DNA from: Seonamhaeicola sediminis | GTDB taxonomy: Bacteria > Bacteroidota > Bacteroidia > Flavobacteriales > Flavobacteriaceae | Assembly: GCF_004358095.2 (NCBI RefSeq) | Contig: NZ_SMZJ02000001.1 | Location: 248,001 to 312,000, forward strand | DNA length: 64,000 nt | Direction: 5' to 3' | Shown: one piece after another, positions 23,458 to 54,759 of the stretch | Position numbering within the stretch: position 1 is the first letter of the stretch | Layout of the letters: each line of letters starts with the position of its first letter | Translations under genes and position numbers: made by a program | Notes under the pieces: model-generated | What the model was told of the DNA's origin: nothing | What the model saw: the letters and a program-made list of their open reading frames with translations, nothing else | Databases searched by the model: none

Positions 23458-23503
23458 CAAACTTAACCTTAAAAACAGATAAAATAATCCTGTAGTGTCC
23501 TGC
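23458..23503 (-). promoter_or_regulatory. Promoter and candidate operator of the 23425-1 operon
   Basis: On the minus strand GCAGGACACTACAGGAT (bases 23503-23487) holds two CAGG half-sites 10 bp apart. After 23 bp comes TAAGTTTG (23465-23458), a perfect match to the Bacteroidetes -7 element TAnnTTTG, and the ATG of the GH2 gene follows 32 bp later. The same arrangement precedes four other transcription units in this window. The binding protein is inferred to be the hybrid two-component regulator encoded next to it. Confidence 0.7.
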
Positions 23504-23588
23504 ACCATCACGTTTTTTAAATGAATTGAAACTCACCTATTTTTAGACTAAAAACTAATAAAATAAAATAGTTGAATAAGATAACACT

Positions 23589-26500
23589 TTAGTTACTAAC
23601 TGTAACTTTTTCTTGATATTCGGATGGTGTTATCCCATATTTCTTGTGAAAACATTGGCTAAAATATTTAGGTCTTTTAAACCCTACTTCGTATGAAACC
23701 TCTGAAATATTTAGTTTATTTAGCTCTAGGAGCTTAGCTGCGTGATTTAGCCTTATTTCCTGAATAAAATCATTGGGAGTTGAATTAGTCCACGCCTTAA
23801 TTTTATTAAAAAGCATAGAACGACTAACACCCAAATCTTCAGAAAACTGAGTTACATTAAAATCTTGATTAGATATATTATCTTTTACAATTTTGATAGA
23901 CTTTTTTAATAATTGTTCATCAAGTGATGTGAGAGAAACATCAATAGAGGTAAAATCATCATTAGACGAAAACTTATTTTTTAATCGCTGTTTAGATTCT
24001 AATAAATTATGAATTCTAAGACTGAATTCCTTTAAGTTAAACGGCTTACTAATGTAATCATCTGCACCACTTTCTAAACCTTCAAATTTATAAACTAAAG
24101 ACGACCTGGATGTTAAAAGAATGACGGGAATATGGCTTGTTGCCAAGGTTGTTTTTATTTTTGAGCAGAGTTCTGTTCCTACCATTTTTGGCATAATCAC
24201 ATCACTAATAATCAAATCAGGCAAATGCTTTAATGTTTTTTCAAATGCTTCTTTTCCGTTTTCTGCTTGAATAATATTGTAATTTGGTTTCAAAATCTCT
24301 TTAATAAAGGATCTTAACACCACATTATCTTCTGCGATAAGAATTGTATACTTTGTTTTTTCTAATAGTAAATCTTCTGGGTTACCAAGTAACTCAATAT
24401 CCTCAATATTAATCTGGGCAGCATATTGCGAGACATCATCACTCATTTTGAAATTTTCCAGTATATCACTTTCTGATAAATGCTTCTTCCCTAATTTAAG
24501 CTTGACAGTAAAAACGGAACCCTTAGGACTTAAATTCTTAGCAAATATTTCTCCGTGGTGTAACTTGACAATATTGCTGGCAATAGAAAGCCCAATTCCT
24601 GTACCTTTCTTGTATTCTTCAATTTCGTTGTTTTTTGAAACTTCAAAAAAGCGATCAAAAATTTTATCTAGGTGTTGCTCCGGGACACCAATTCCAGTGT
24701 CTTTAACCTCTACAATTAGGTTAGTATCATCTTTAGAAACATGAATACTAATAGCACCTCCTGCTTTGGTAAACTTGAATGCATTCGATATTAAATTATA
24801 AAAAACCCTTTCTAATTTATATCTGTCGTAATACACAAAAATTTCTTCTTCAGAGGCATGAAACTCATAGTTATAATGACCATTTTTGGCATGCTCTGAA
24901 AACGATAAAAATATTTCTTGTAAAAACTTTACTATATTTCCTTCTGCTACTTCCAGTTTTAATTGATTACTTTCAAGTTTTCTAAAATCCATCAATCTAT
25001 TAATAAGTCTTAATAATTGATTAGCACTACCCTCTATTATTTTTAGTTTCTTATAGATGAGATTAGGCCCATTATAATTCTCTAAAATATTTTGAAGTGG
25101 TCCTAAAATGAGTGTTAGAGGTGTTCTAAATTCATGTGAAATGTTCGTAAAGAATTGCAGTTTAGCTTTATTTAACTCTTCAGTTCTTTTCTTCTCGGCA
25201 AATTCAAACTCCAGTTTTTGTTTTAATCTTGATTTAGATTGAAGCATCCAAGAAATACTAAAAAACAATCCGAATGCTAATACAAAATAAATAGCATAAG
25301 CCCACCATGTAAACCAAGGTGCAGGTTGTATTGTTATATCAAGCTCAGTTATTTCATTATTCCAAACACCATCATAACCCACAGCTTTGACTTGAAACGT
25401 ATAAGTACCTGCATTTTGCAGGGTATAAAATGCTTCGTTTTGTTTAGTATATAACCAGTTATTATCTAACCCTTTAAGTCTATACGCATATTGATTGGTA
25501 TTGGAATTGATATAATTAGGAAACGCATAATTTATAGAAAAACTAGCATTATTATGAGGTAGAACAATTTCCTTTGAATAACTTATATTTTTAAATACGG
25601 TTTCATTTTTATTTAAAGTGTCAATTTTATTATTCTTAATTTTAAGATACGATAAAATTACCCTTGGGACGTTGGTCAATTTCACAATATTATCTGCTTG
25701 GAAAGTTATAACCCCTTGCTTTCCTCCAAAATAGAATTTATCATTTTCTTTAAGAGCAGCATTTACTCTAAAATCGTTATCCTGAGCTAGTGTTTGTTGG
25801 TTGTAAATTATACTTTCTTGCTTTATAGGATCATACTCTACAATTCCTTGATCTGTACTTAACCAAAGTAAGCCTTTGCTGCTTTCTAAAATTGCATTGA
25901 CCGTAAAAATTCTATTCTTTGCAGAAACAATAACAGTTTCAAATCTCTTATCTTCTGTGAATTTATAAAGCCCTCTAGTTCTTGAACCTACCCAAATCAC
26001 TCCTCGTGAATCTTTATGCACCGAAACTATATCTAATCTGCTAGAATCTACAATAGTTGGGTAATTTGATATCTTAAAATTTCCTTTCTTTTCTGCTTCT
26101 AAAAAGCTCAAATGGTCTGAACCAACAACAATTAAATTCCTTTTGTCTTTCAGAATAACTTTAACGTAACTGCTTTTTAATTGACGGGAGTTAAAAGCCC
26201 TCATTTTTTTTTGTTTGGTATCGTATTTTATTAAACCTCTACCTATAGTTGCTATCCAAATAGTATTACCAAAACCCTTTTTAATATCCAATACAGATAC
26301 GTCTTTTAAAAAATTTTTCAACTCAGAAGAAAGATAATTTTCGTACTCTTTTTGTGATTGTAAATCATAAATCTTGATACCATTTTTCATGGCACCAATC
26401 CAGAGTAAATTTCCATCCCTATATAAAGTCTTGATAGGATAAACTGTTGTTTTTGTTTTGTTTTGAACATCAAAAAGTTTTGTAACTATACCACTACTAT

Positions 26501-27626
26501 CTATTTTATTTAAATCTCCACCCTCTGTACCATAGTAAATATTTTTTTCGTCATCAGAGGCTATACAATTGGCAATATTATTATAGGTTCCAGAATTTTT
26601 AAATCTCCTAAAATTCTGATTGGCTTTGTGCCATGTCATCACTCCAACATCTTGAGTAGCTAACCAAATGGAACCATTTTTATCTTTATATATTTTTTTA
26701 AAATGATTTTTTACACTTCCAATATCTTCGTAAATACTACTATTAACAGTGGTTATTTCTTTTGAAGGTGTTACGATGAAAAGCCCTGTTGTTGTTGCTA
26801 ACCAAAGGTTTTCACTTTCATCTTTATACAAATCTTTAATCTCTATATTTTTAAAAAAATCAAATTCCTCAGGAGAACTAAATTGTTTTGTTTTTTTATT
26901 GAATAGTAAAAATCCGTGATACTTTGTAGCTAGAGCAATGATATCTGGTTCTACTTCTAATATTTTGTAAATAAAAAACCGCTTATTCAAATTCCTTGGG
27001 CGGTATGTTTGATGTTTAAATTTTCCTTCCTTACTCCTGCTTACTTGTATAATTCCATTAAAAGTAGCCAACCAAACGGTTTTTTTCTTGTCAACATGTA
27101 TATCTAATATCAGTGTAGGTTTTTTACTGTTTTTTAGAAATCTTATAAAACTGTCATGTTTCTTTGTATAAATGGAAATACCATCTTCTGTTCCAAACCA
27201 TATATTTCCATTTTTCATTTCAAAACTGGAAAAAATTCTATTACCACTTAAGGAATTTTCATCGGAAGTTTTGAAATATCTTTTAAATTGATCTTTTTGA
27301 GGTTCGTATTTGTTTAACCCGTTGAAAGTTCCTATCCATAAATTCCCATCTTTATCTTCTAGGATGTTATGCACATTATTACTACTTATTGTTGATTTAT
27401 CTTCAGGTAAACTTCTATAAACAACAACTTCTTCTCCATTAAATTTATTCAACCCATTATTTGTAGCTAACCATATTTGCCCAAGTTTATCTTGCTTTAT
27501 ATAATTTACGGTACTACTAGATAAACCATCAGATAGATTGAAATTTTTGAAATTAAAATCACCAATCTGAGATTGTACTAAACCAATCTGAAATAATAAG
27601 AAAAAATAAAATATCCTATGCCTCAT
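23589..27626 (-). CDS. Hybrid two-component system regulator (HTCS)
   Basis: A 1345-residue one-protein sensor-regulator typical of Bacteroidetes PULs. A signal peptide (ending LVQS) leads a periplasmic sensor made of two-bladed propeller repeats with the recurring pattern LWIGTFNGLNKY or IWLATNNGLNKF, then a Y_Y_Y domain (YAYRLKGLDNNW). A membrane span covers about residues 772-795. The histidine kinase has His831 in NISHEFRTPL and the ATP-binding DTGIGVPE and GTGIGLSIA. The receiver has the phospho-acceptor Asp1142 in IISDVIMP, and an AraC-type DNA-binding domain covers about 1240-1340 (VSYEVGFKRPKYFSQCF). It would sense an oligosaccharide of the target polymer and activate the operons. It has a 225-bp gap upstream and a 163-bp gap downstream, where the GH2 promoter lies. 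Confidence 0.93.
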   Translation of the reverse strand: MRHRIFYFFLLFQIGLVQSQIGDFNFKNFNLSDGLSSSTVNYIKQDKLGQIWLATNNGLNKFNGEEVVVYRSLPEDKSTISSNNVHNILEDKDGNLWIGTFNGLNKYEPQKDQFKRYFKTSDENSLSGNRIFSSFEMKNGNIWFGTEDGISIYTKKHDSFIRFLKNSKKPTLILDIHVDKKKTVWLATFNGIIQVSRSKEGKFKHQTYRPRNLNKRFFIYKILEVEPDIIALATKYHGFLLFNKKTKQFSSPEEFDFFKNIEIKDLYKDESENLWLATTTGLFIVTPSKEITTVNSSIYEDIGSVKNHFKKIYKDKNGSIWLATQDVGVMTWHKANQNFRRFKNSGTYNNIANCIASDDEKNIYYGTEGGDLNKIDSSGIVTKLFDVQNKTKTTVYPIKTLYRDGNLLWIGAMKNGIKIYDLQSQKEYENYLSSELKNFLKDVSVLDIKKGFGNTIWIATIGRGLIKYDTKQKKMRAFNSRQLKSSYVKVILKDKRNLIVVGSDHLSFLEAEKKGNFKISNYPTIVDSSRLDIVSVHKDSRGVIWVGSRTRGLYKFTEDKRFETVIVSAKNRIFTVNAILESSKGLLWLSTDQGIVEYDPIKQESIIYNQQTLAQDNDFRVNAALKENDKFYFGGKQGVITFQADNIVKLTNVPRVILSYLKIKNNKIDTLNKNETVFKNISYSKEIVLPHNNASFSINYAFPNYINSNTNQYAYRLKGLDNNWLYTKQNEAFYTLQNAGTYTFQVKAVGYDGVWNNEITELDITIQPAPWFTWWAYAIYFVLAFGLFFSISWMLQSKSRLKQKLEFEFAEKKRTEELNKAKLQFFTNISHEFRTPLTLILGPLQNILENYNGPNLIYKKLKIIEGSANQLLRLINRLMDFRKLESNQLKLEVAEGNIVKFLQEIFLSFSEHAKNGHYNYEFHASEEEIFVYYDRYKLERVFYNLISNAFKFTKAGGAISIHVSKDDTNLIVEVKDTGIGVPEQHLDKIFDRFFEVSKNNEIEEYKKGTGIGLSIASNIVKLHHGEIFAKNLSPKGSVFTVKLKLGKKHLSESDILENFKMSDDVSQYAAQINIEDIELLGNPEDLLLEKTKYTILIAEDNVVLRSFIKEILKPNYNIIQAENGKEAFEKTLKHLPDLIISDVIMPKMVGTELCSKIKTTLATSHIPVILLTSRSSLVYKFEGLESGADDYISKPFNLKEFSLRIHNLLESKQRLKNKFSSNDDFTSIDVSLTSLDEQLLKKSIKIVKDNISNQDFNVTQFSEDLGVSRSMLFNKIKAWTNSTPNDFIQEIRLNHAAKLLELNKLNISEVSYEVGFKRPKYFSQCFHKKYGITPSEYQEKVTVSN

Positions 27627-27805
27627 TTGTAGCTCTTATAACCTATAGCACAAGTTAAAAAATGTTTTAGAGTTATCGATAATATATTCTCAAAATGAAT
27701 AGGCGAAGTGTCATAATTCTAAAAATGCTACCTCAATATCATTTCACTATTATGGTTAATATTTTATTTTCTATAAAACTTAAAAGCAAAAAAAGTTTAA
27801 ATAAG

Positions 27806-27831: not shown

Positions 27832-27851
27832 GGTAATAAAATAACTAAATT

Positions 27852-28895
27852 CTATGCTGATTCTCTATCAATATAAAAGAAAGGTGCTTTAACCTTATCC
27901 TTAACATTTTCTGTTATCATTTTTGCAGCCTGTACTCCCATAGCCTCAAAATCACATGAAATCACTGTGATGCCTAAAACTTGTTTTAAGGGTGTATCAT
28001 TATAAGATATAACTCCAACATTAACACCTAATTTATAGTCACTTTTCCTCACTAGATTCATTACTGCCACTAAATCATCTTCCTCTATAGTAATATATAA
28101 ACTTTTATTTTCTAATTGAAATTCATTAGAAATCTCCTCTACAATTTCGAAATCAAAACAAAATTTGGAACAAAACGCCCTAAAACCATCTACTATTTCT
28201 GAAGGATATGGGTAAAATGTGGTTTTTGGATAAACAAGTGTTAACTTATTATACTTATTGGCTATTTTCTCTTTACCACTTTCTAAAGCTGAAAAAATAT
28301 CATTTTCATAATCCTGATAGACTTCTATAAATTCACCTTCTATTTGCGAGCTTTTACTATCTAATAGAATTAAATTTTCCTTAGGCAATTCATTTATTAC
28401 TGCTTCTACCTTCTTTGTAAAACTTCTATGAGATAAGTTTTCTGTCCTAAAATGGGGCATGATTACAAAATAATCATACACCGATTTATACTTTGTCATT
28501 AATTCTAAAAAAAGTGTTTCATCGGAATGATAACTTTGAAGATCTACATGACAGTTATCGCCCATTTCTTTTAAAAAAGAATTGTAAACCTGTGTTTTAT
28601 AAGGACTCAGTTTATTAACAAAAAACAAAATATTCAATTTTGATATTAACTGAGTTTTGGCAATGTAGGTTCCTTTTCCAGGAACTGAAACTATAACTTT
28701 ACGCTTCTTTAAAACCCTGTAAGCTCTTTCAACTGTATCTCTTGATAAATAAAATTCTTTACTTAGACTATTTATTGAAGGTACTTGGTCTCCAAACTTA
28801 GCATTGCCTTTGGAAACATTATTAATTACAGAGTTAATAATCTGCAAGTATTTGGGCACTATAGAGTTTGTGTCTAGTTTTATAAGGTCTAACAT
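27852..28895 (-). CDS. GntR-family regulator with a LacI-type sugar-binding domain
   Basis: A 347-residue cytoplasmic protein without signal peptide. Residues about 10-75 form a GntR winged helix-turn-helix (VPKYLQIINSVINNV, DQVPSINSLSKEFYLSRDTVERAYRVL, GKGTYI). The remaining 270 residues have the alternating pattern of a periplasmic-binding-protein-like effector domain (LNILFFVNKLSPYK, LGVNVGVISYNDTPL, ITVISCDFEAMGVQAAKMI). Such regulators respond to a free sugar, and in this locus rhamnose or a uronate derivative is the obvious candidate. It is monocistronic, with a terminator behind it and a 142-bp gap before the sulfatase stop upstream. Its operator is not identified. Confidence 0.85.
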   Translation of the reverse strand: MLDLIKLDTNSIVPKYLQIINSVINNVSKGNAKFGDQVPSINSLSKEFYLSRDTVERAYRVLKKRKVIVSVPGKGTYIAKTQLISKLNILFFVNKLSPYKTQVYNSFLKEMGDNCHVDLQSYHSDETLFLELMTKYKSVYDYFVIMPHFRTENLSHRSFTKKVEAVINELPKENLILLDSKSSQIEGEFIEVYQDYENDIFSALESGKEKIANKYNKLTLVYPKTTFYPYPSEIVDGFRAFCSKFCFDFEIVEEISNEFQLENKSLYITIEEDDLVAVMNLVRKSDYKLGVNVGVISYNDTPLKQVLGITVISCDFEAMGVQAAKMITENVKDKVKAPFFYIDRESA

Positions 28896-30468: not shown

Positions 30469-30490
30469 TTTAATAAAAATATTTTTATTA

Positions 30491-33761: not shown

Positions 33762-36512
33762 TTATAGTTTGGATACGAACTTATAGTGCCCTGGTTGTAC
33801 TAAGAATTCATTTTTATTACCTTGGTTTGAAATCGTTTCAATGCCATCAGTTCCATCAAAAGAGCCGGTAGTTCCAGGTAGAATCACTTGAGCTGTTGTA
33901 TTTGGAGGGATCATAATTTCCAACTGAAATTCGTCTCCATTGATTTCCCAAGAAGACGATGCTTCACCATAAGGCGTGTTTAATGATGCTGACGCCGAAC
34001 TAAGGGGTTGCCTTGGTTCTGGAGCTATACGAATAACTTTATAACCTGCTTCTAAAGGTGCAATGGCTCCAATTCTTTCATACATCCACTCACCTATGGC
34101 ACCATACGCATAATGATTTAAACTATTCATGTTTTGAGGGTTGAAACCCTCGACTTTACTGTAACTGTTCCAACGTTCCCAAATGGTGCTTGCACCTTGA
34201 TTAATAGAGTAAAACCATGATGGATACGTTTCATTAAACAGTAATTTGTACATTAAATCTATTTCACCGGTTTCATCTAAAACTTGGGACAATAATGGCG
34301 TTCCCAAAAAACCTGTTCTTAAATGATTGTCGGCTTCTGCAATCTTTTTTAGTAAATTTTGTTTTGCACCTTCATGTTTTTCCTCTGGTAATAATTTGAA
34401 TGCTAAAGCCAACAAATAGGAGGTTTGCGTTTCTGTAGCATTTTTTATAGTACCATCGGTATTAAAAAACTGATTACTAAACTGCTCCGAAACACTTTTA
34501 TACAGCTTATAGTATGTATTATAATCGTCATTATTCCCTAAAATTTTTGCGGTTTTGGCGGTTATATGAGCCGATTGCGCAAAAAATGCGGTACCTATTA
34601 CATTTAATTTAGTATCGCCTTTATTATCACCATTTTCTGGATAAGGCTGTAGCCAATCTGCAAAAAAGCCCATTTTAGAAATTAAATTCTCAGAACTTTC
34701 TTGATGGTAAGCCACCCAAGCTTTCATCATTTCAAAATTATCTTCTAAAATTTTTACATCTCCAGTCCTTTGGTAAATTTTATAAGGTATAATGGTGCAG
34801 ACATCGCCCCAACCTGCACTTACTTTACCATCAAACAAAACATCGGGCACTACCCAAGGAATAGCTCCATTTTCAAACTGAGATTCACGCACACTTTGTA
34901 ACCAGCTGGCCCAGAATTTATAAACATCTGCATTAAACATGGATGTTGGTCCAAACACCTGTGCATCTCCTGTCCAACCCATACGCTCATCGCGTTGCGG
35001 ACAATCGGTGGGGATATCAAAAAAGTTGCCTCTCATACCCCAAACAATATTGCTTTGTAATTGATTTAATTTTTCGTGAGACGAGGTAAAGGTGCCATTT
35101 TCATCAAAATCTGAATATTGCACTATACCTGTAACCCAGTCATTTGTTGGTTCTACAGTTGTATCAAACCCACTCAACTCTACATATCTAAAGCCATGAA
35201 ATGTGAATTTAGGCATCCACTCAATCACACCATCTTGTGATGCTGTGTAGTAATTTGTCGATAGCGCACTTCGGTAATTTTTGGTATAAAACGCACCATC
35301 TGGAGATAGCATTTCTGCAAAACGCACTTTTAAGGTTTCCCCTTTTTTCATAGGAACTTTCAAAAGCGGAACACCTACCATGTTCTGTTTTAAATCAAAA
35401 ATTATAGTGCCATCTTTTTGAATAATCTCTTGTGTTGCTAATTCAATTTTAGACTTAACTTTAGTGTGGCGCTTAGGCTCTAAACGAATATTGTTTGTAA
35501 TAGGAAAGCTGTTGACTGAACTCCAATCTTTATCGCTAAAATTATTGGTTGTCCATCCTTCCATTTCTAAATTGGCATCATAAGTTTCACCATCATAAAT
35601 TTCTGAAAGACGAATGGGGCCATTGGTAGTCCCCTTCCAACTGTTATCTGAAACAATTATTTCTTTAGTGCCATCTTTCATAGTTAATTCTAACTGACAT
35701 AAGACTTTAGGCGTTTCTGTATCAACCCACAATGCTTTTTTCCACCCTAATCTACTGGAATGCCACCCAGAAGCCAGTTCCACACCTATGGTGTTTTGAC
35801 CAGATTCTATAACACTGGTAACATTGTAAGTAATGGTTTCTATACGCTCTTTGTAAGGTGTATAACCGGGAGGCATCACATCATCACTTACATCTTCGCC
35901 ATTAATGGCTACATCAAAAACCCCTTTTGCTGTAATATACAATCTTGCAGATTCCACATCGTTAGATAACTCAAAACCTTTTCTTAAATATTGTGGTCTG
36001 TGGATAATGTTGTCCTGACTTCCCAGAATACCCTCAGCCTTCGTATCTAAACCTATCCATTGTGCTTTCCAATCATCATTGGATAATAACCCTAATTCAA
36101 AATGATTTATAGCACTCCATTCTGAAGGAGCTTCATCTTGATTCCAATACTTCACTTGCCAATATACTTTTTGGCGCGATTCCAGAGGCTTACCCTCGTA
36201 TTTTACCCAAACGGACTGGTCTGTGTTTTGTTTCTCAGAATCCCATAAATCAGCATTGTTGGGTAATAAATCTTTACTAGATGCTACTACAATTTGGTAT
36301 GCTGACTGATGTTTAACACCCTCTGTAGCTGGTAATTTCCAAGAAAATGTTGGAGTTGCATCATAAAATCCTAACGGATTTTTAAAACCTTCCGAAATAG
36401 TTAAATCCTTTGGTTTTTCTAGGGTAGTCTTTTCTTTGCAAGAAATAAAACTAAAAAAGACAACAGATAAGAGCGTTAATAAAATTGTTTTTTGTTTTGA
36501 TTTAGTATTCAT
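33762..36512 (-). CDS. GH78 alpha-L-rhamnosidase, lipoprotein (copy 2)
   Basis: A 916-residue lipoprotein (signal ending SFISC). The domain order is that of GH78: an Ig-like N-terminal domain (FKNPLGFYDATPTFSWKLP), a sugar-binding domain (ARLYITAKGVFDVAINGE), the toroid with the signature DCPQRDERMGWTGDAQ and the late GASTIWERWNSY, then a beta-sandwich ending with APEPRQPL. The acidic residues in DERMGWTGD are the usual catalytic candidates. It is a tandem paralogue of the next gene upstream, from which it is separated by 6 bp. Together the pair would remove terminal alpha-rhamnose from two different contexts. Confidence 0.9.
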   Translation of the reverse strand: MNTKSKQKTILLTLLSVVFFSFISCKEKTTLEKPKDLTISEGFKNPLGFYDATPTFSWKLPATEGVKHQSAYQIVVASSKDLLPNNADLWDSEKQNTDQSVWVKYEGKPLESRQKVYWQVKYWNQDEAPSEWSAINHFELGLLSNDDWKAQWIGLDTKAEGILGSQDNIIHRPQYLRKGFELSNDVESARLYITAKGVFDVAINGEDVSDDVMPPGYTPYKERIETITYNVTSVIESGQNTIGVELASGWHSSRLGWKKALWVDTETPKVLCQLELTMKDGTKEIIVSDNSWKGTTNGPIRLSEIYDGETYDANLEMEGWTTNNFSDKDWSSVNSFPITNNIRLEPKRHTKVKSKIELATQEIIQKDGTIIFDLKQNMVGVPLLKVPMKKGETLKVRFAEMLSPDGAFYTKNYRSALSTNYYTASQDGVIEWMPKFTFHGFRYVELSGFDTTVEPTNDWVTGIVQYSDFDENGTFTSSHEKLNQLQSNIVWGMRGNFFDIPTDCPQRDERMGWTGDAQVFGPTSMFNADVYKFWASWLQSVRESQFENGAIPWVVPDVLFDGKVSAGWGDVCTIIPYKIYQRTGDVKILEDNFEMMKAWVAYHQESSENLISKMGFFADWLQPYPENGDNKGDTKLNVIGTAFFAQSAHITAKTAKILGNNDDYNTYYKLYKSVSEQFSNQFFNTDGTIKNATETQTSYLLALAFKLLPEEKHEGAKQNLLKKIAEADNHLRTGFLGTPLLSQVLDETGEIDLMYKLLFNETYPSWFYSINQGASTIWERWNSYSKVEGFNPQNMNSLNHYAYGAIGEWMYERIGAIAPLEAGYKVIRIAPEPRQPLSSASASLNTPYGEASSSWEINGDEFQLEIMIPPNTTAQVILPGTTGSFDGTDGIETISNQGNKNEFLVQPGHYKFVSKL

Positions 36513-36518
36513 TAGGTA

Positions 36519-39314: not shown

Positions 39315-39364
39315 CAAAGCAAGATGCTTCTTTTTTGAAAAAAAACTATCCTGTACTGTCATTA
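39315..39364 (-). promoter_or_regulatory. Candidate operator and promoter of the 39251-29038 operon
   Basis: On the minus strand GACAGTACAGGAT (bases 39360-39348) matches the proximal half of the repeat seen before the other operons, with the CAGGAT half intact and the distal half degenerate (AATG). A TTGCTTTG at 39322-39315 is the closest -7-like element, 27 bp away, which is longer than in the other four cases. This is the weakest of the five sites. Confidence 0.5.
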
Positions 39365-43189: not shown

Positions 43190-43202
43190 AATTTCAAAAC
43201 TA

Positions 43203-44696
43203 TTACTCAACGCTTAGTACGATACGTCTATAATCGTGTAAGGAAGCAATTTTATTATTGTCTTCAATTTCGAGAATGATATGAATGGTTTTACCTGAAG
43301 CATCCTCTGGGACCGTAATCTCAGTAATAGCCTTCGAAGGATGCTTAATAATTTTACTGTTGCCTGTATAAGTTCCTGCCTCATTATAAACCCACCATTT
43401 AAAGGTAATATTATCACCATCTGGGTCGAATGAAGCGGACGCGTCTAATGACATGACCTCTCCTGCAGCTGCTTGTATAAAATGAATCTTTTCAGTTTTA
43501 TCAGAATTTATTGCAGCAACTGGATGATGATTTGCATTTTCATAGGATTCTATGCACCAATCCATTCTGCATTGAAAATCGTTATAATAGGCTTGTCGCC
43601 ATCTCCAAACTGGAGTGTAAATTGAATTGTAGATTTCTTTTGTTTCAGGATCTTTCCATTCATCTGAAACTTCAGTATATAAATAATAATCTCCATAAGT
43701 AACCTCATCTGCCCTTACACTTTCGTGTCTAGAAGGCACATTCTTAATAGGTTTTTCTGAAAATCTACCGCTCCAGCCACCCCAACTGGGTTGACTAATA
43801 TCAGATAAACCCTGATGCATAAGTCCTAACCAAGGAATAGTGCCTCCGCCCTCTATAAAAGCCAATCTACCTGTTGGTGTTTGCCTTAAAGGAAATAATC
43901 TACCTAATGCGCCATGATTTTTAATATGCTCTAGCGCCCACTGATGTTGCCCTGTGGCATTATAAGCATAAGGTTTCCAAGTGTGAGGACCTTTTTTATC
44001 AGCGTCTGGGTCATTTCCCCAGGCCCAAGCAGGCCCACCATAAGCATAGGTTTGATAGTTGCTTCGTGTCCAGTGTATTTCTGGATAATGAGCACAAATC
44101 CATGCACCTGCATTATCTTGCGCCCCATTTTCAAATACTCTGAGTTTATTTAATATCTTCTTTAAAGCTACTGCCGAATGGCTTGCCTTAAAATCATTTA
44201 AGGCCTGTGCTAATGTGTTAGAACCGGCATTCACTACAATATAAATTAAACGCGAATCCTTCTTTTTAAAAATTTCAATTAATAACTCTGACCCCTTAGT
44301 ACTTTTGCCTTCACCAACATCGCCCATACCATATCCAGGTTGCCCCGGGGCCACAATAGTTCTTAAATAGGCTGGTTCTGGATAACCCTTGGCATGTATT
44401 TTCAAGTTTTCAAAAACCTGTTCATAGCCGTTAATTAGGTTTTCAAACAAATCTGGATAAAGTCTTTGTCTTTCAACTAATCTATGTTGATTATGCAAAT
44501 ACTTGCCGCTTACGGCAATGAGTCCTTCAAGGTCAAATTCATTGGAACACATAAGCATGTGAGCCATTTGTTGTTCTTCATCGGGTTCATTACCCATATC
44601 TGCTAATATCACCAACCGGTGCTTTGAAGATTGACTCAAAGCATACTGTCCCAAACAAATAAGAAAACCAAATGCTATTATTTTTAAAACATTCAT
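43203..44696 (-). CDS. DUF1593 (nucleoside-hydrolase-like) exported protein, cassette copy 1
   Basis: I use the ATG at 44696 (497 residues), one base after the stop of the upstream gene, giving a Sec signal MNVLKIIAFG to YALSQ; an earlier Met at 44723 would overlap by 26 bp and precede the signal. The protein parallels the one at 39464-41029: DMGNEPDEEQQMAHMLM, YIVVNAGSNTLAQAL, NAGAWICAHYPE, SDISQPSWGGWSGRFS and the C-terminal SLDASASFDPDGDNITFKWW. The acidic site reads NEPDEEQQ here versus HDPDDEQQ in the other copy. It lacks a lipobox, so it should be free in the periplasm while its paralogue is membrane-anchored. Confidence 0.78.
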   Translation of the reverse strand: MNVLKIIAFGFLICLGQYALSQSSKHRLVILADMGNEPDEEQQMAHMLMCSNEFDLEGLIAVSGKYLHNQHRLVERQRLYPDLFENLINGYEQVFENLKIHAKGYPEPAYLRTIVAPGQPGYGMGDVGEGKSTKGSELLIEIFKKKDSRLIYIVVNAGSNTLAQALNDFKASHSAVALKKILNKLRVFENGAQDNAGAWICAHYPEIHWTRSNYQTYAYGGPAWAWGNDPDADKKGPHTWKPYAYNATGQHQWALEHIKNHGALGRLFPLRQTPTGRLAFIEGGGTIPWLGLMHQGLSDISQPSWGGWSGRFSEKPIKNVPSRHESVRADEVTYGDYYLYTEVSDEWKDPETKEIYNSIYTPVWRWRQAYYNDFQCRMDWCIESYENANHHPVAAINSDKTEKIHFIQAAAGEVMSLDASASFDPDGDNITFKWWVYNEAGTYTGNSKIIKHPSKAITEITVPEDASGKTIHIILEIEDNNKIASLHDYRRIVLSVE

Positions 44697-44697: not shown

Positions 44698-46875
44698 TCA
44701 TGGCTCATTTCTTGCAATTTCAATATCCTGTTTTACCCATTCGGTGATTTGTTTCCAATCTACAACACCTACTCTATTGGTCCATAAAGGGTTATGGTTT
44801 TGCAACATGGCTTGCGAGACATATTGGTTCCAAAACTCAAAAGCATTTTCTAAAGCTTTTACTGCCATTTCTTGATACTCGTTTTTATTAGAATCTCTAA
44901 ATAAAGCTAGATACGTGGCGCCCTCAATTTTATAAGCGTAATATTTTCCTAAAAATGACACTGTTTTAATATCGTTTAAAGTGAATTGTAATTCTTTATC
45001 GTTGGTTTTTTCAATTCCCTCCAATTCTTTCAAAGCACTTTCTGCAACAGTAATAAGTTTTTCTGAAACCTGTAAAGGAGATTTTAAAGTAGTGGTGCTT
45101 CCTTCAGAAATCATTTTTACATAGTCTGGAATGGATTGATTTCCTGATTTAGGATGCACACCTAGCGAGATAAAACGGTTTACATCATGAAATCCAGTTT
45201 CATTTTCTGCTTGCTGGGGCCTACTTTTACAACCTTCTATATACCACTGAAAATCAAGGCTTCCCCAATGAAATCCAGTAGTTATCGGATAAACCATAGA
45301 CGCATTTTGCCATGCAGAAAATAATTTGTCAGCATCAATACCCGAAAACCGACTTGATAATATATCTCTAAATCGTTCATTGGATATTGTAGGGTCATAA
45401 CTTAACCTGCCCCATAACAACCATTGATACCAATGTTTAACCACCTCAATTTGATTGGGTGTTTCAGGTACTTTAGTTAAAAAGTCTCGCCCCCAAATCC
45501 ATTGGTCTGAACCAAAATAAATACCTTTAGCAACATCCTCATAGGGTAAATTATTAATAAATTCCCGGGTAAAATCTGGAGCGCCCCATCTAAAGTAAAA
45601 GGTGTCGTCATTACGCAAGCCCCATAACGTTTTCATGCCTTCTATTTGTTGTAAATAATTGGCATTTTCATGATACGGTTGCTGGGTAGCACTATATACA
45701 TGGGCTTTAGCATATTTGAAACAGAATAAAAATTCTATATTTTCAGCCTCAACAACAGCCTTAAACTTTTCTGCAATTTCTTTGGCTCCTGATTGATGTT
45801 GCCGGTGTATAAATTTAAATTGTCGCTCTGGCATTTCCTTAGCTACATCTAAAATTCCCTTGGCATAGGTATCATAGGCCCAATCTTCCTTTTCTTCCCA
45901 TGAAGCTCCATGCATATTTTCTCCAGTGGTGAGTCCAATTCCGGCCAAATCTGGATAGGTGATAAACATCTGCTTGATGCTTTTTCTGAAATAATCCGTG
46001 GTAACTTCATTATCTCTATCATCTGTAATACCATATTTTCCTTGGGTGCCGTAGTCAAAAATATTCCATGTGATGATATGGAAATCAATGTTTCTACGCT
46101 TACCATAGGCCATTACTTTTTTCCAAAACTCAATTTTCTCATCTATAGTAATATTTTTTAACACCTCTACATTTTCTAAAATTTCTGGTGCATCAAAGCC
46201 AATACCCATCAAATTATAATATTCCTTCCAATCTGTTGTAGAACGTTGTACATCATCCAAAGCAACGTCTTCATATCCTGGCACTTTTACTAACGAGGGA
46301 AACGGGTGCAAACTCCATAATGAAATATAGTTATATCGATACCGCGCCATAGTATCTATATAATCTTTCCAAAAGTTGAAATCCCACATGTGCGGTATAT
46401 TATGCTGTGCCGCATCACAAACATCGGTATAACTGGGTGTGCGTACATCTAAGGGTATGTTAAATTTAGGTCCACGCATTTCCAAATAAGGATTCCTAAT
46501 CATAGATTTTACGCCTTCCAGCCCGTAAAGCCTTATTTGTTCAGCAAGTTCTAAAGTTCCGTACATTAATCCTGCTTCGTCGTATCCAATGACTTCTAGT
46601 TTGTTTTTAGAATTATTAATCCGAAAGCCTTCAGAAACCAATGTATCTAAAGCTTGAATCCTTAGAATTATATCAGGCTCAACCTTACTTGTAGAATCGA
46701 TAATCTTGCAAAACCCTTCCAATACAGATTCAACATCCTGTAGGGCAAATGACACTTGTGGCGCATCTGATAGCGTGGTAATATTTACTATGGTTTGTTT
46801 GCTGTTACAGGAAAAAAATAAAAGACATTGAACTAAACAAAAAACAACATAAGTCTGGAAAGTATTTTTTCTCAT
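44698..46875 (-). CDS. GH20/GH67-like barrel glycosidase candidate, cassette copy 1, lipoprotein
   Basis: A 725-residue lipoprotein (signal ending LLFFSC), head of the four-gene unit 46875-39464. An N-terminal domain with EVIGYDEAGLMYGTLELAEQ precedes a barrel with RYRYNYISLWSLHPFP, GIGLTTGENMHGASWEEKE (candidate catalytic Glu) and YFRWGAPDFTREF, plus SDQWIWGRDF. It is a clear paralogue of the gene at 41033-43189 by motif order and length. The activity is unknown. The upstream gap contains a candidate operator and the terminator of the previous unit. Confidence 0.65.
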   Translation of the reverse strand: MRKNTFQTYVVFCLVQCLLFFSCNSKQTIVNITTLSDAPQVSFALQDVESVLEGFCKIIDSTSKVEPDIILRIQALDTLVSEGFRINNSKNKLEVIGYDEAGLMYGTLELAEQIRLYGLEGVKSMIRNPYLEMRGPKFNIPLDVRTPSYTDVCDAAQHNIPHMWDFNFWKDYIDTMARYRYNYISLWSLHPFPSLVKVPGYEDVALDDVQRSTTDWKEYYNLMGIGFDAPEILENVEVLKNITIDEKIEFWKKVMAYGKRRNIDFHIITWNIFDYGTQGKYGITDDRDNEVTTDYFRKSIKQMFITYPDLAGIGLTTGENMHGASWEEKEDWAYDTYAKGILDVAKEMPERQFKFIHRQHQSGAKEIAEKFKAVVEAENIEFLFCFKYAKAHVYSATQQPYHENANYLQQIEGMKTLWGLRNDDTFYFRWGAPDFTREFINNLPYEDVAKGIYFGSDQWIWGRDFLTKVPETPNQIEVVKHWYQWLLWGRLSYDPTISNERFRDILSSRFSGIDADKLFSAWQNASMVYPITTGFHWGSLDFQWYIEGCKSRPQQAENETGFHDVNRFISLGVHPKSGNQSIPDYVKMISEGSTTTLKSPLQVSEKLITVAESALKELEGIEKTNDKELQFTLNDIKTVSFLGKYYAYKIEGATYLALFRDSNKNEYQEMAVKALENAFEFWNQYVSQAMLQNHNPLWTNRVGVVDWKQITEWVKQDIEIARNEP

Positions 46876-46902: not shown

Positions 46903-46948
46903 TAAATCTATTACTTAAAAAAAAGATGTTCATCCTGCTCTTTACTGT
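46903..46948 (-). promoter_or_regulatory. Candidate operator and promoter of the 46875-39464 operon
   Basis: On the minus strand ACAGTAAAGAGCAGGAT (46948-46932) has CAGt and CAGG half-sites 10 bp apart. TAGATTTA (46910-46903) lies 23 bp downstream and matches TAnnTTTG except for the last base. The gene start is 27 bp beyond it. This is the same geometry as at 23458-23503. Confidence 0.6.
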
Positions 46949-49698: not shown

Positions 49699-49797
49699 AG
49701 CTATAATACCAATATTGATTTATTCAAGGTTACAATCTAAACATAAAAGCACTCCACTTTAATAGTTTGTTAGAAATGCGAGTCCTATTTCTAAAAA

Positions 49798-50508: not shown

Positions 50509-50585
50509 CTTTTTAAGTTTATTGTTTTTCTTAGGTAAAATGGAATTCGCTATAAGCTTACTATTGCTTATAACTCATTTCATCT

Positions 50586-52781
50586 TTACTTCTTTATTAA
50601 TTTTATGAATACTGGTTTTTTTGAATTTATTTTTACAAAATAGATACCTCTGGGTTTATCTGATATATCTAAATGAACTTTTCCTCCATTGACCTTACTG
50701 GTATTTGTGCTTATTAATTGTGAATGGATATTGTAAACCTCTAAATCTATGGTCTCCATACCACTAGGAATGTATAACTCAAACACACCACTGGATGGGT
50801 TGGGATACGCTTTTATATCTTCTAGTAAATTGATGGTTTTTGACATGAGGCCTTGGCAGGCTGCTTTACTCTTTACCTGAATCTCATCGCCATGGTCTAC
50901 CGCTATTGTAAAATTAGTTTGAGTAGTCTCAAATAATTCTACACCATTTTTATAAACCTTGTACGGGCCTGCACCTGAGGTTACGGATACACTGGCTGAT
51001 TGCTTCACAACCGATATTTTACCAGTCATACTGACGCCACCTTCAATAGTTACTTCATAGCAATGGCTGTAATTTTCGCCAACCACGTCAATACAAAAAT
51101 CATAAGTGCCTGGAGTTACATCCTCAATCGTCAATTCCTTAGTAAAATTATAATCTACTCCATTGATGGTGGTTGCATAATCATGTGTAGCATGGCCTGT
51201 AATAATAAGCTTTCCGTTGTTCTTATCTGCACAGGTCTCCCCAACTGCCTGAATGGTAAAGTTATTAGCCGCTAAGGGGTCTTGAGGTACGATGCCTAAA
51301 TCTATGATTTGTAGGTACAAGGGCATTGCACTGCCTGAGGTATCCTCCATAAGATAATAGTACACTTTACCATCCTTTATATTTACTACACCATGATCAA
51401 AAGTTCTACCTGTTGTAGCCTCATAAACTCTTTGAAAGTTATTGGTGCCTCCTGCTGTTTTATCTACAAAAACACGTCCATTATTTAATCCGATTAGGTA
51501 AACATCGTTACCTGACGTATACAACGCTGACCCTCCCGAAAAATCCTCTGAAGTAATAAAATCTCCCGTTCCTGATGGTTGATAGGTGTGCAAATATTTT
51601 GTAACGTTATTTTCATTGTCTCTAACTCTACTAATAAAATGTACATCGCCATTACCCGTAACCGTCCAATCAAAATTACCTACAATATGTACTTTATCTT
51701 TTTGAGTTGTTGCTACATAATCTCCTGGTTCCATTACCTTTATAACATCAGCATCCCATAATGGTAGGTCAAATGGTTCTCCTTTGTAATTTTTCCACCC
51801 TGTGGCTCCACTAGGATCATCTGAATACGCATAATAAATACCGTTTTGGTACTGATATTTATCATCATTGTTAGAAGATCTACGCTGGAAACCGATTCGT
51901 ATTTTTCCATTGGCATATTTAATATCGCCATACAAGCCCCAGTTATAAGTTATCCCAGATTGACTTTTTGCATTTAATCTATTAAAATCTATGAAATTAC
52001 CCCAAGTACCTGAAGCCGCATCATATTTGCTAAACTTGTACATACCATTATTGTTTCCCCCTTCTCGCATAAAAAATAGAAGATCGCCTTCGTCATTAAG
52101 AAAAAAGCTTGGGTAAGTTAAGGCTACAAATTCAGATTGTGCTACGCTTCCGGGTGTGCGCAAATGCTTGTAATCTCCATCCACCCCATTATCTTTCACA
52201 AACTTATCCAAAGTAAATTCACTATCTGCTACGGTAGCAGCGTTTGGAACCGAATAGGAATATCTAAAATAATCATTAGCTAGACTTCCATCTGAAGGCC
52301 TAGAGGCACTGTAAGCGTGCATATCATATAACAGATGAATAGTTCCATCTTTAGGGCTTATACCTACAGCACAGGTATTATGAGATTCACCAATCCAGTA
52401 TCTATTTTGATAGCCTGTGTGCCTATGCGGAAATTCTATTGTAGCAACAACTCCAGTAACTTTATTGTATCGAGAAAGCATTAAATGACGGTCTGCCTTA
52501 GGACCACGATACCAAGTCATGAACACAAAATCCCCAAAAGATTTCACAGCATCACCATGTGCCGAAATGTTGCGCCCAAAGAAAAAATCATAAGGTGCAT
52601 TATCTCCAGTATTTGGAGCACCGCCTGTGACCTTACTACCATTAAAATGCAAACCTAAATCGGTTATTTTGACTTCGGTTTCTAAGACAACTTGGGCTCT
52701 TAGCATACTTGAAGATACCAGTAGCATCCACAAAAATACCATCGCCTTTATTCTCCAATGGAATGTGCAATTTTTTTTCAT
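50586..52781 (-). CDS. T9SS-secreted BNR_4 propeller protein, ulvan-lyase-like
   Basis: A 731-residue protein with a Sec signal ending MLRAQ. Residues about 30-490 are a BNR_4 propeller: FVFMTWYRGPKADRHLMLSR, GESHNTCAVGISPKDGTIHL, LTYPSFFLNDEGDLLFFMRE and KIRIGFQRRSSNN. Several His, Tyr and Arg residues (RHTGYQNRYWIG, LLYDMHAYS) could serve a beta-elimination mechanism as in PL24/PL25-type ulvan lyases. Residues 506-731 are the 226-residue module also present at the end of the beta-helix protein, with a T9SS type A end (AYPNPSSGVFELY). Because it is secreted and heads its own operon under a candidate operator, it is the best candidate for the extracellular endo-acting lyase here. Sequence comparison would be needed to fix the PL family. 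Confidence 0.75.
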   Translation of the reverse strand: MKKNCTFHWRIKAMVFLWMLLVSSSMLRAQVVLETEVKITDLGLHFNGSKVTGGAPNTGDNAPYDFFFGRNISAHGDAVKSFGDFVFMTWYRGPKADRHLMLSRYNKVTGVVATIEFPHRHTGYQNRYWIGESHNTCAVGISPKDGTIHLLYDMHAYSASRPSDGSLANDYFRYSYSVPNAATVADSEFTLDKFVKDNGVDGDYKHLRTPGSVAQSEFVALTYPSFFLNDEGDLLFFMREGGNNNGMYKFSKYDAASGTWGNFIDFNRLNAKSQSGITYNWGLYGDIKYANGKIRIGFQRRSSNNDDKYQYQNGIYYAYSDDPSGATGWKNYKGEPFDLPLWDADVIKVMEPGDYVATTQKDKVHIVGNFDWTVTGNGDVHFISRVRDNENNVTKYLHTYQPSGTGDFITSEDFSGGSALYTSGNDVYLIGLNNGRVFVDKTAGGTNNFQRVYEATTGRTFDHGVVNIKDGKVYYYLMEDTSGSAMPLYLQIIDLGIVPQDPLAANNFTIQAVGETCADKNNGKLIITGHATHDYATTINGVDYNFTKELTIEDVTPGTYDFCIDVVGENYSHCYEVTIEGGVSMTGKISVVKQSASVSVTSGAGPYKVYKNGVELFETTQTNFTIAVDHGDEIQVKSKAACQGLMSKTINLLEDIKAYPNPSSGVFELYIPSGMETIDLEVYNIHSQLISTNTSKVNGGKVHLDISDKPRGIYFVKINSKKPVFIKLIKK

Positions 52782-52819
52782 AAGTAGTTTTTTTCTTATT
52801 ATAGCTTAGGATAACTTTG

Positions 52820-52864
52820 TAAAATTACAAATTTTAATATTCAAATTATCCTGTAGTGTGCTGC
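52820..52864 (-). promoter_or_regulatory. Candidate operator and promoter of the 52781-47059 operon
   Basis: On the minus strand GCAGCACACTACAGGAT (52864-52848) differs from the site at 23503-23487 by a single base. TAATTTTA (52827-52820) lies 22 bp downstream and fits TAnnTTTG except for the last base. The ATG is 38 bp further. Confidence 0.65.
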
Positions 52865-52875
52865 TTAGAAATATT

Positions 52876-52886
52876 GGGGGGGGGGG
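52876..52886. repeat. Homopolymeric G11 tract next to the operator
   Basis: Eleven consecutive G on the plus strand, 11 bp upstream (in the sense of transcription) of the candidate operator of the BNR_4 gene. Such a run is striking in DNA this AT-rich and is prone to slipped-strand length change. It may be a phase-variable element or an assembly-sensitive spot. Confidence 0.9.
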
Positions 52887-53074
52887 AAATCTAAGAACGC
52901 ACGTAATCAAAGATAATACAAACTGAAAATTATTTGAACATATCATCCATAAAAAACCATAATACTCTTTTATTTACTGAATAAACACGCTAGAATAACT
53001 TAACTGAACTCCATTTGAAAATACAACTCAAAAAATTTCATAAACTCGTACACGGTTGTAAATATCTTAAAAAC

Positions 53075-53434
53075 CTATCGCACCACTAGCTTTGAATGAT
53101 GTACTCTTTGGAAATCATCAATCACCTTTATAAAGTATACACCAGAAGTAAAGTGTCCGTTGTTTTCAATAACTAGTCTACCTTCAGTCATGTTCCTTAC
53201 ATAAATCACTTTTCCGAGCATATTGTGTATCACAATATTGGCTTTATCAATACCGTTTAGGGTTATGGTAAAATTTTTGGACGTAGGGTTAGGAAATACA
53301 CTAATATTAGCAGGGTTTACTTCAATGTCTTCTGTACTTAAAGTTGTTGACTCTACAACCCATTTAGATCTGTCGTCACTCGCGTTTGTGAGCATATTGA
53401 ATTTTGTCAAAATGCACAATGGGTGTAACTCCAT
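53075..53434 (-). pseudogene. Orphan T9SS sorting domain, probable gene remnant
   Basis: The 119-residue frame starts at an ATG that overlaps the rhamnose mutarotase stop (TAATG). It has no signal peptide. Residues about 1-40 (NASDDRSKWVVES) look like the tail of a lost secreted domain. Residues about 43-119 are a complete T9SS type A sorting domain: ISVFPNPTSKNFTITL, VIHNMLGKVIY and SGVYFIKVIDD. A sorting domain without an exported cargo has no evident use, so I read it as the 3' end of a gene whose front was deleted. The first codons coincide with a 19-bp sequence repeated at 55095-55113, which may mark the breakpoint. A small functional protein is possible but unlikely. Confidence 0.65.
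53401..53419. repeat. 19-bp repeat, copy 1 (second copy at 55095-55113)
   Basis: ATTTTGTCAAAATGCACAA is identical at 53401-53419 and 55095-55113. Similarity continues beyond it towards the end of the gene next to it (AACTCCATTATT versus CACTCTATTATT), so each copy starts just past a stop codon. The core contains the palindrome ATTTTG-T-CAAAAT. It could be a duplicated 3' flank or a recombination joint. Confidence 0.7.
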
Positions 53435-53748
53435 TATTCCATATAAAACACCTCTTCTAAAGGTATAGAAACGGGTGAATTATCTGGGTTTACTTCCATG
53501 ATATCTGCCATAAAATCCCACCATTTTTTCACAATGGGATTATTAGCTAAATCTTGCGAACCTCCTTCACCAGACACCTTTTGAAACGCAAATAAGGTAC
53601 TGGTTTCTTCATCTAAAAAAATAGAATACTCACTTACACCACTATCTTTTAATAGTTTTTTTAACTCTGGCCAAAGTTGGTCATGCCTGGTCTTATAAGC
53701 TTCTTTTTGACCTTTATTTAATTTCATTTTAAATGCTAATCTTTGCAT
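53434..53748 (-). CDS. rhaM: L-rhamnose mutarotase
   Basis: A 104-residue cytoplasmic protein of the standard length for RhaM, which interconverts the alpha and beta anomers of L-rhamnose. The active-site residues known from the E. coli enzyme fall at the same numbers: Tyr18 and His22 in AYKTRHDQLWPEL and Tyr41 in VSEYSIFLD, with the Trp pair in VKKWWDFMADIM. It shows that rhamnose is the sugar released by this locus. No rhamnose isomerase, kinase or aldolase is in the window. It stands after a 139-bp gap with a hairpin terminator, so it probably has its own start, and its stop overlaps the remnant behind it. Confidence 0.93.
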   Translation of the reverse strand: MQRLAFKMKLNKGQKEAYKTRHDQLWPELKKLLKDSGVSEYSIFLDEETSTLFAFQKVSGEGGSQDLANNPIVKKWWDFMADIMEVNPDNSPVSIPLEEVFYME

Positions 53749-53823
53749 AATGTCATAACGCTTTTATTTCTTAGTTTAAAATCCTTTTAAAGATACGTTA
53801 GATTTTTGATTTTTGGTTTAAAA

Positions 53824-53858
53824 AAAACATTCTATCTTAAACTAAGATAGAATGTTTT
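53824..53858 (-). terminator. Strong hairpin terminator between the 53888 gene and rhaM
   Basis: A perfect 16-bp stem: 53824-53839 pairs with 53843-53858 around a 3-base loop (AAC); the core is CATTCTATCTTA and TAAGATAGAATG. A-rich and T-rich edges make it work in both directions. It lies 30 bp past the stop of the secreted protein gene. Confidence 0.82.
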
Positions 53859-53887
53859 AATAAAAATTATTTTAAGTAAAGCCTTAT

Positions 53888-54679
53888 TTATTGCTTTACA
53901 ATCTTTTTAGTAAATGAAGAACCATTATCACCTTTCATTTTAACAAGATACATACCGCTAGCTAATGGGCTTACGTTTAAGTTAAGTGAAGACACACCAT
54001 TTACCTTTTTTTCCATAACCTCTTTACCAATTAATGAGTATACAGAAACCTGCTTTACATTAGTAGTTAAACCTTTAATGGACAACACGTCATTTACTGG
54101 GTTAGACACAAATATTGAGCTTGTATCAAAACTTTCATTACTTAATGATGTTTCAAGAATAAAATCAAAGACCATTTTAGTTCCTCCACCAAAAAACATG
54201 TTAGTACCTGCTGAAGTGCCATTGTTTTGAATTCTTCTAAAAACACTTGAGCCTTCCCATCCTGTACCAGTATTATCACTTGTAAGAAAGATTGTTGTTC
54301 CTCCATCTCTAAACTGCCACCTGTCTTGTTGTCCTGATGCCATTGCTTCAGTTCCAAAACCAAGAGTACCACTAGTACCGCTAGTATCATTTGGCTGAAG
54401 TGCTCCTTCTCCAGGCATTTGAGACGTAATAGACCAATCGGTACCGCTTGGATGGGCTACAATTGTAAACAACTGTGTATCCTCATTACCAGCAGTTGCT
54501 GCCGCCTGATACTTTGCGTTGTTAACTCCACTGTCTTGTGTGAGAAAAGTTTCTGGACTTGTTCCATTAACTTTGATTTTGTAAATACCTGGTGTACCAT
54601 CAAAAGCCTGCCCTTGCACCTGCAACGCAAACGTAGTTAGTAATAAAAAAGCAATAGCTTTAAGAGTAGTTTTTTTCAT
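53888..54679 (-). CDS. Small T9SS-secreted protein, beta-trefoil-like, unknown function
   Basis: A 263-residue protein with a Sec signal ending VQGQA. Residues about 25-170 are beta-rich with the spacing of ricin-type trefoil repeats: GIYKIKVNGTSPETFLTQD, QLFTIVAHPSGTDWSITSQ, DRWQFRDGGTTIFLTSD. Residues about 185-263 are a T9SS sorting domain (IFVSNPVNDVLSIKGL, SGMYLVKMKGDNGSSF). There is no catalytic motif that I recognise, so a secreted carbohydrate-binding role is the likeliest. It is monocistronic: a candidate operator precedes it and a strong terminator follows. Its own PUL-type promoter suggests high, substrate-dependent expression. Confidence 0.65.
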   Translation of the reverse strand: MKKTTLKAIAFLLLTTFALQVQGQAFDGTPGIYKIKVNGTSPETFLTQDSGVNNAKYQAAATAGNEDTQLFTIVAHPSGTDWSITSQMPGEGALQPNDTSGTSGTLGFGTEAMASGQQDRWQFRDGGTTIFLTSDNTGTGWEGSSVFRRIQNNGTSAGTNMFFGGGTKMVFDFILETSLSNESFDTSSIFVSNPVNDVLSIKGLTTNVKQVSVYSLIGKEVMEKKVNGVSSLNLNVSPLASGMYLVKMKGDNGSSFTKKIVKQ

Positions 54680-54713
54680 AATAAAAATGTTTTAATTAGT
54701 AAACTGGATTAAT

Positions 54714-54759
54714 AATACTTAAATTTAATTGATTAACAAACTATCCTGCCGCATCCTGT
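54714..54759 (-). promoter_or_regulatory. Candidate operator and promoter of the small secreted protein gene
   Basis: On the minus strand ACAGGATGCGGCAGGAT (54759-54743) contains two full CAGGAT half-sites exactly 10 bp apart, the cleanest direct repeat of the set. TAAGTATT (54721-54714) is 23 bp downstream, a partial match to TAnnTTTG at the position seen in the other promoters. The ATG is 34 bp further. Confidence 0.6.

Follow-up and report, generated by a model that had tools for sequence, protein, structure and literature searches.

A direct repeat held at constant spacing from the -7 element of rhamnose and ulvan-type operons in Flavobacteriaceae, and a GntR-family regulator as its probable reader

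The control of polysaccharide loci in the Bacteroidota is usually attributed to hybrid two-component sensors (HTCS), SusR or ECF systems, which detect their glycans outside the cytoplasm. The stretch of Seonamhaeicola sediminis DNA considered here (64,000 nucleotides, C1:248001-312000, hereafter the window; the genome comprises 3,537,147 bases in 50 contigs) raises the question of which regulator reads a short direct repeat, CAG-N7-CAGGAT, that recurs before its operons at a fixed distance from the -7 element. A sequence-only reading of the window had proposed an HTCS encoded beside the strongest site. Comparison of genomes points elsewhere: the motif is probably the operator of a clade of one-component GntR-family regulators with a LacI-like sensor, which would activate rhamnose catabolism and ulvan-type loci in response to rhamnose.

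The exact motif occurs four times in the window; 100 dinucleotide shuffles contained 0.20 copies on average and at most 2. Matches with one mismatch (8 in the window, 7.59 expected) show no excess over chance, so the case stands on the exact sites, their clustering in the genome and their conservation. A scan of the whole genome gave 20 exact matches, compared with 3 for a control pattern read backward. Fourteen of the 20 fall within 187 kb at the polysaccharide locus (C1:271487-458395), a span whose length predicts about 1.06 (binomial P ~4e-14). All 14 lie upstream of genes in a large carbohydrate-degradation cluster, and the two that overlap a called open reading frame (ORF) do so solely through an over-long ORF start. 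The placement of the sites before operons, already recognized from the window, holds, but its scope had been drawn too small: the sites run about 150 kb past the window, and one (C1:243590) precedes the rhamnose operon of this genome. Within the window, the four complete sites and the single proximal half lie where they had been reported, and they are listed here with the -7 elements and their position weight matrix scores.

23487-23502, minus strand: site CAGGACACTACAGGAT, score 23.8, preceding the GH2-GH106 operon
23458-23465, minus strand: -7 element TAAGTTTG, 21 bp past site 23487
39348-39363, minus strand: degenerate site AATGACAGTACAGGAT, distal half lost, score 12.9, preceding the GH78 genes
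46932-46947, minus strand: site CAGTAAAGAGCAGGAT, score 20.9, preceding 44698-46875
46903-46910, minus strand: -7 element TAGATTTA, 21 bp past site 46932
52848-52863, minus strand: site CAGCACACTACAGGAT, score 24.3, preceding 50586-52781 (BNR_4 protein)
52820-52827, minus strand: -7 element TAATTTTA, 20 bp past site 52848, one off the rule
54743-54758, minus strand: site CAGGATGCGGCAGGAT, score 22.1, preceding 53888-54679 and the mutarotase gene
54714-54721, minus strand: -7 element TAAGTATT, 21 bp past site 54743

The distance from site to -7 element is indeed fixed, as had been claimed, but at a spacer of 21 bp in three of the four complete sites and 20 bp at 52848 rather than the 22-23 bp first given. 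Site 39348 is weak on both counts, having a half-site only and merely CATCTTGC where the -7 element is expected; its degenerate form recurs in Seonamhaeicola aphaedonensis (L131:1747). A run of 11 C residues (52886-52876, minus strand) stands 12 bp upstream of site 52863-52848; it may be prone to slippage with a change in length, or may be a sequencing artefact.

The spacing emerges without being selected for. When the 14 cluster sites are aligned on CAG-N7-CAGGAT alone, a block TAnnTT starts 21 bp past CAGGAT (T in 12 of 14, A in 13, and each of the two following T positions in 13), and no comparably conserved block is seen in the 60 bp upstream of these sites. A second upstream half-site of the kind used by AraC dimers was sought and discarded, none being present down to -60. 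TAnnTT stands at exactly this offset in 10 of the 14 (chance P ~4e-17). The refined motif is RCAGKAYASWRCAGGATRS-N19-TAnnTTTR, a direct repeat of period 10, derived from the free columns of 71 distinct sites; these came from 51 loci and the joined region of the own genome and were required to have the -7 element. A matrix scan of 1.42 Mb of locus sequence returned 132 sites scoring at least 12, and 4 with a reversed matrix; TAnnTTK starts at offset 37 in 89 of the 132 and in at most 8 at any other offset. Because 71 of these 132 sites had been chosen with TAnnTT at that offset, the 14-site alignment is the unbiased test of spacing. Nearly all of the matrix sites (127) either precede a called gene start by no more than 250 bp or overlap it, and 6 are inside a called ORF. 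As a direct repeat of period 10 the motif scores 147, compared with 79 for the best inverted repeat; the fixed CAG columns favour the direct-repeat reading in that score, although the free columns repeat too. Arrays of half-sites stepping by 10 bp occur at L133:2818-2858 (five overlapping registers, upstream of a SusC-like gene), L209:4594-4614 and L155:3727-3737. A single shared motif, clustered, placed before operons and held at a fixed distance from the -7 element, is what had been expected of a single activator, and position over the -33 region at a constant 21 bp is the arrangement of a class II-type site.

Two regulatory genes of the window bear on the identity of that activator, the first lying just beyond the second.

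27852-28895, minus strand: GntR-family regulator with a LacI/periplasmic-binding-like sensor (from the GntR Pfam match, predicted fold and co-occurrence), the proposed binder or the binder's paralogue
23589-27626, minus strand: HTCS with an AraC-type domain (from Pfam domains), the candidate of the sequence-only reading

Of 299 Flavobacteriaceae genomes, representing 236 genera, 82 contain the motif together with its -7 element, up to 10 times each; the backward control appeared in 4 table rows. For comparison, the 42 genomes with at least three hits were taken as motif-rich, and 38 of those with none as motif-free. A close full-length relative of the window GntR (at least 328 bits and 47% identity) is present in 42/42 motif-rich and 0/38 motif-free genomes, where the best match reaches 259.5 bits. 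Across the family, a GntR above 300 bits is found in 60 of the 299 genomes, and the exact motif in 58 of these 60 carriers, as against 24 of the 239 others. Exact hits number 4.3 per carrier and 26 in total in the 239 remaining genomes, and every genome with three or more hits is a carrier (Fisher p ~1e-39, relatedness ignored). Two carriers, G190 and G256, lack an exact match, but CGGTACAGTACAGGACAG stands before their aldolase gene in register with a -7 element. Beyond the family, a class-wide sample of 295 genomes (including this genome and a few relatives) contained 39 with a hit, mostly single and not consensus-like, and 26 class-level genomes were tested for GntR. Among the 12 tested non-family genomes with a hit, all five judged consensus-like have the regulator (G319, 335 bits; G333, 277; G407, 255; G551, 247; G502, 223); G382 has a match of 116 bits only, and none was found at E<=1e-20 in G555, G338, G441, G397, G376 or G343. 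By sequence likeness, sites precede an aldolase-like gene in G333 and G319, in the latter also a SusC-like gene, and in G551 a gene set whose end adjoins the GntR gene. The motif is real and common to many marine bacteria.

The window protein belongs to the GntR family by PF00392 (40.6 bits over residues 16-78, cut-off 27). Its predicted structure (mean predicted local distance difference test score 93.1, from an alignment of 68 sequences) joins a GntR winged helix to a LacI/periplasmic-binding fold, and the best PDB matches of the model are mostly LacI-family regulators, including LacI, CcpA, CelR and RbsR; Peripla_BP_3 scores below its cut-off in a 91%-identical relative (21.3, cut-off 26.5). 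That relative is from S. aphaedonensis, the nearest named genome found, in which two sites are conserved. Three close GntR paralogues, any of which might act at the window's promoters, are encoded in this genome (C1:275852, C1:244012 and C23:51605), and the one at C1:244012, beside the rhamnose operon, is 52% identical to the window GntR. A third GntR type (C1:458744-459745, 166 bits from the window GntR) lies upstream of a SusC-type gene with a site at 458380, and has a weak site of its own (13.3). Tandem GntR pairs beside the rhamnose operon (L152:15816-18092, L170:7855-10056, L148:6502-8907 and L164:8239-10476) suggest repeated duplication of the regulator.

In the loci taken for comparison, the GntR gene lies mostly beside the rhamnose operon, whose leading gene carries this site at this spacing. 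That gene encodes a protein of about 702 residues that matches, over cut-off, the NCBIfam models for bifunctional aldolase/short-chain dehydrogenase and bifunctional rhamnulose-1-phosphate aldolase/dehydrogenase (1341 and 945.5 bits, including NF006191).

C1:241417-243522: aldolase gene of this genome, with site 243590

Downstream of the aldolase gene are a rhamnose-isomerase-type protein (best model TIGR02629, 502.9 bits, below the cut-off of 646.75), an FGGY kinase (best model rhamnulokinase, far under cut-off), a class II aldolase-type protein and an aldehyde dehydrogenase. Loci that had been picked around GntR genes or sites contain 64 GntR copies. Of these, 48 lie no more than 1.5 kb from a site, and 43 no more than 2.5 kb from the nearest end of the aldolase gene. 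A site with a matrix score of at least 10 stands in 43 of 51 aldolase promoters, as in a rhamnose regulon, and TAnnTT lies exactly 21 bp past the best frame in 47 of the 51, four of these 47 having diverged sites.

Every one of the 42 motif-rich genomes has the aldolase gene, whereas of 32 motif-free genomes tested three (G037, G108 and G222) have a close, full-length copy; the other motif-free matches are two end-of-contig fragments in G207 and a 33%-identical protein in G135. Seven genomes combine the aldolase with a diverged GntR only (236-260 bits), and six of them lack the exact motif, the seventh (G064) having a single hit. Since these aldolase genomes are nearly without the exact motif, the motif follows the GntR clade more closely than it follows the pathway, and hitch-hiking of the motif with rhamnose genes was set aside on the same genomes. 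In G108, G222, G020 and G064 the site has diverged but is still in frame at the 21-bp spacing (in G108 and G222 it reads CAGAAC at the aldolase), and none is present at the aldolase in G037 and G247; these are too few genomes to claim that the site has changed together with the GntR.

The genes that follow the window sites include these.

20375-23536, minus strand: GH2-type glycoside hydrolase (Pfam), first gene after site 23487
16871-20362, minus strand: GH106 alpha-L-rhamnosidase (PF17132, 659.6 bits), next gene after GH2 in the same direction
33762-39251, minus strand: two GH78-type alpha-L-rhamnosidase genes (Pfam Bac_rhamnosid models), after the degenerate site
53434-53748, minus strand: L-rhamnose mutarotase (TIGR02625, 120.9 bits, cut-off 99.6), downstream of site 54743

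The called ORF 20375-23536, which begins with GTG, contains site 23487; its true start is more likely the in-frame ATG near 23425, past the -7 element. Elsewhere in this genome, sites mark a RhaT symporter (PF06379, 239 bits), a PL28 ulvan lyase (PF22826; a weak site, score 14.6), a sulfatase-GH78 fusion, a SusC-type receptor, GH39, GH5, sulfatases and an ECF sigma factor. Judged by their sites, the aldolase, isomerase-type protein, mutarotase, RhaT, PL28, sulfatase-GH78 fusion and SusC-type genes would be members of the regulon. The ECF sigma factor gene (C1:327161-327730) has its site 193 bp upstream (326968, plus strand), so that a further tier of regulation may lie under GntR control. Within the gene sets, the products of 44698-46875, 41033-43210 and C1:414367-416280 (725, 725 and 637 residues) gave no Pfam match at E<=0.001 and are candidates for unknown enzymes of the pathway.

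We infer that the GntR proteins bind the motif, that rhamnose or one of its metabolites is their ligand and that they activate rather than repress. A GntR dimer would occupy a pair of CAGKAYRS-like half-sites that follow each other head to tail at 10 bp, and so lie on the same DNA face. The repeat would be centred at roughly -40 and cover the -33 region if the -7 element has its TA near -12; class II activators usually sit near -40. With L-rhamnose or a rhamnose metabolite bound, the GntR would aid RNA polymerase at the TAnnTTTG -7 element 21 bp downstream. The ancestral target may have been the rhamnose catabolic operon (rhamnulose-1-phosphate aldolase/dehydrogenase, isomerase and kinase), the regulon having spread in polysaccharide degraders to rhamnose-rich, ulvan-type loci with their SusC-type receptors, rhamnosidases, sulfatases, RhaT and mutarotase.

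Several observations weigh against this reading. Sixteen of the 64 GntR copies lie farther than 1.5 kb from any site, and one or two exact hits occur in each of 24 of the 239 GntR-free genomes. Outside the family, G376 has three scattered hits and G441 and G343 two each with no GntR at E<=1e-20, while G573 and G377, among 13 tested hit-free genomes, carry the GntR. The share of promoters with a -33 TTG (22-26 bp upstream) is 2% for 103 promoters with a site and 11% for 140 generic TAnnTTTG sites, but an off-position gives the same 2% and 11%, and the comparison with ordinary promoters speaks neither way. Sugar-gene regulators of the GntR family frequently act as repressors, repression is conceivable from an operator over -33, and a 10-bp direct repeat is unlike the palindrome known for GntR/AraR operators. 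Direct repeats of 10-11 bp are a feature of DeoR-type rhamnose regulators, as sections of one survey describe (PMC3870299), though this genome has no DeoRC match.

The alternative that survives best keeps the family and changes the paralogue. The window GntR may have diverged off these sites, which the C1:244012 copy would then control, leaving the window copy to sense or bind something else. Loci of the window-type clade are in keeping with this, being often without a near site (none at the cut-off in L132, L139 and L149; 4.4 kb away in L131 and 1.7 kb in L167). The recognition-helix regions, however, are near-identical (LSRDTVERAY and LSRDTVEKAY), and in L176 a weak site (13.4) stands 50 bp from a window-type GntR gene; we regard the arrangement as possible, with the odds against it.

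The same GntR clade might alternatively act as a repressor released by rhamnose, its operator over -33 blocking RNA polymerase. The overlap of the site with the -33 region would suit this, and a GntR repressor of alginate catabolism is reportedly known, by the title of a paper, from the flavobacterium Zobellia galactanivorans. A repressor does not need single-base phasing, however, and the 21-bp spacing recurs in the aldolase promoters, cluster sites and matrix sites alike; this is no proof, but it makes repression unlikely.

Under the sequence-only reading, the HTCS would contact the motif with its AraC-type domain and switch the locus on once it has sensed an oligosaccharide. In its favour, the HTCS gene adjoins the site rated strongest in the window, and its DNA-binding domain has close relatives (E<1e-40) in 15 of the 42 motif-rich and in none of the 38 motif-free genomes. 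An HTCS regulon would carry an HTCS wherever the motif occurs, yet 27 motif-rich genomes have no close relative. In G268, with five sites, nothing matches the HTCS at E<=1e-12, and in G265, with nine sites, the best match is 2.6e-18. The same sites precede the rhamnose operon, away from HTCS genes, and HTCS repeats are reported with other spacing in sections of PMC3878776. The HTCS is thus very probably not the binder, and we would be surprised to see this proposal revived; given the real 15-versus-0 association, it may still provide an extra input at some promoters. Equally improbable is another conserved regulator, for example of the DeoR family (whose rhamnose regulators use imperfect direct repeats of 10-11-bp periodicity in the relevant part of PMC3870299), since DeoRC (PF00455), rejected as binder, has no match in this genome and occurs in 25/42 motif-rich and 18/38 motif-free genomes, in a comparison that covered DeoR, GntR and HTCS and not all other families.

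Returning to the GntR clade, we lean, with less assurance than for the operator itself, towards a broader view: that an undescribed GntR rhamnose master activator of Bacteroidia, acting from head-to-tail 10-bp half-sites locked 21 bp from the -7 element, senses one monosaccharide or metabolite inside the cell and drives both rhamnose catabolism and a ulvan-type cluster of about 190 kb, replacing or standing above HTCS sensors. Such a one-component regulator would couple monosaccharide catabolism to many ulvan-type degradation operons through an operator that can be read from the genome. It would supply a proposed regulator for the rhamnose operon of many Flavobacteriaceae, make regulon members predictable among unannotated secreted proteins, and offer a clean case in which to test whether a GntR protein can activate a Bacteroidota -7 promoter when its operator is a direct repeat.

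Among the closest known systems, AraR of the Bacillus subtilis type, an arabinose repressor with palindromic operators, shares the layout of GntR DNA-binding domain and LacI-like sensor; a profile of the window GntR matches the DNA-binding domain of AraR at E 4.7e-12 and, weakly, the AraR sensor at E 0.009. Unlike an AraR operator, the motif associated with the window GntR reads best as a 10-bp direct repeat, locked to a -7 element. The Zobellia regulator, likened here by title alone, is also a GntR protein at an algal polysaccharide locus of a marine flavobacterium, but concerns alginate and is a repressor. No GntR regulator of rhamnose or ulvan was found among the titles listed from the open-licence literature searched. 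Rhamnose regulators across bacteria, including RhaR of Bacteroides thetaiotaomicron, are similar in controlling the rhamnose pathway, in some lineages with rhamnose-oligosaccharide genes, and in targeting a RhaEW-type aldolase/dehydrogenase; those described in the sections of PMC3870299 concerned belong to the AraC, DeoR and LacI families, the AraC-type ones with 21-bp periodicity, and its main text mentions neither GntR nor Flavobacteri. The window protein falls in none of these families, having a GntR winged helix and a likeness to LacI limited to the sensor fold, and it differs further in its own motif and large polysaccharide regulon. Bacteroides HTCS regulons resemble the present one in activating polysaccharide loci from direct-repeat motifs, but the regulators are membrane-spanning hybrids, the motifs predicted in sections of PMC3878776 are longer (12- to 16-bp sites with 5- to 9-bp spacers), and the distribution of HTCS does not fit that of the motif. 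FucR and ManR of B. thetaiotaomicron (Table 2 of PMC3878776) are GntR regulators of monosaccharide pathways in the Bacteroidota, ManR also controlling a SusC/SusD operon; they act on fucose and mannose rather than rhamnose, and are set apart by sugar, with sensor and operator uncompared. Relative to known sugar regulators with a GntR domain and LacI-like sensor, what would be new here is the sugar pathway, the unusual operator and the wide polysaccharide regulon.

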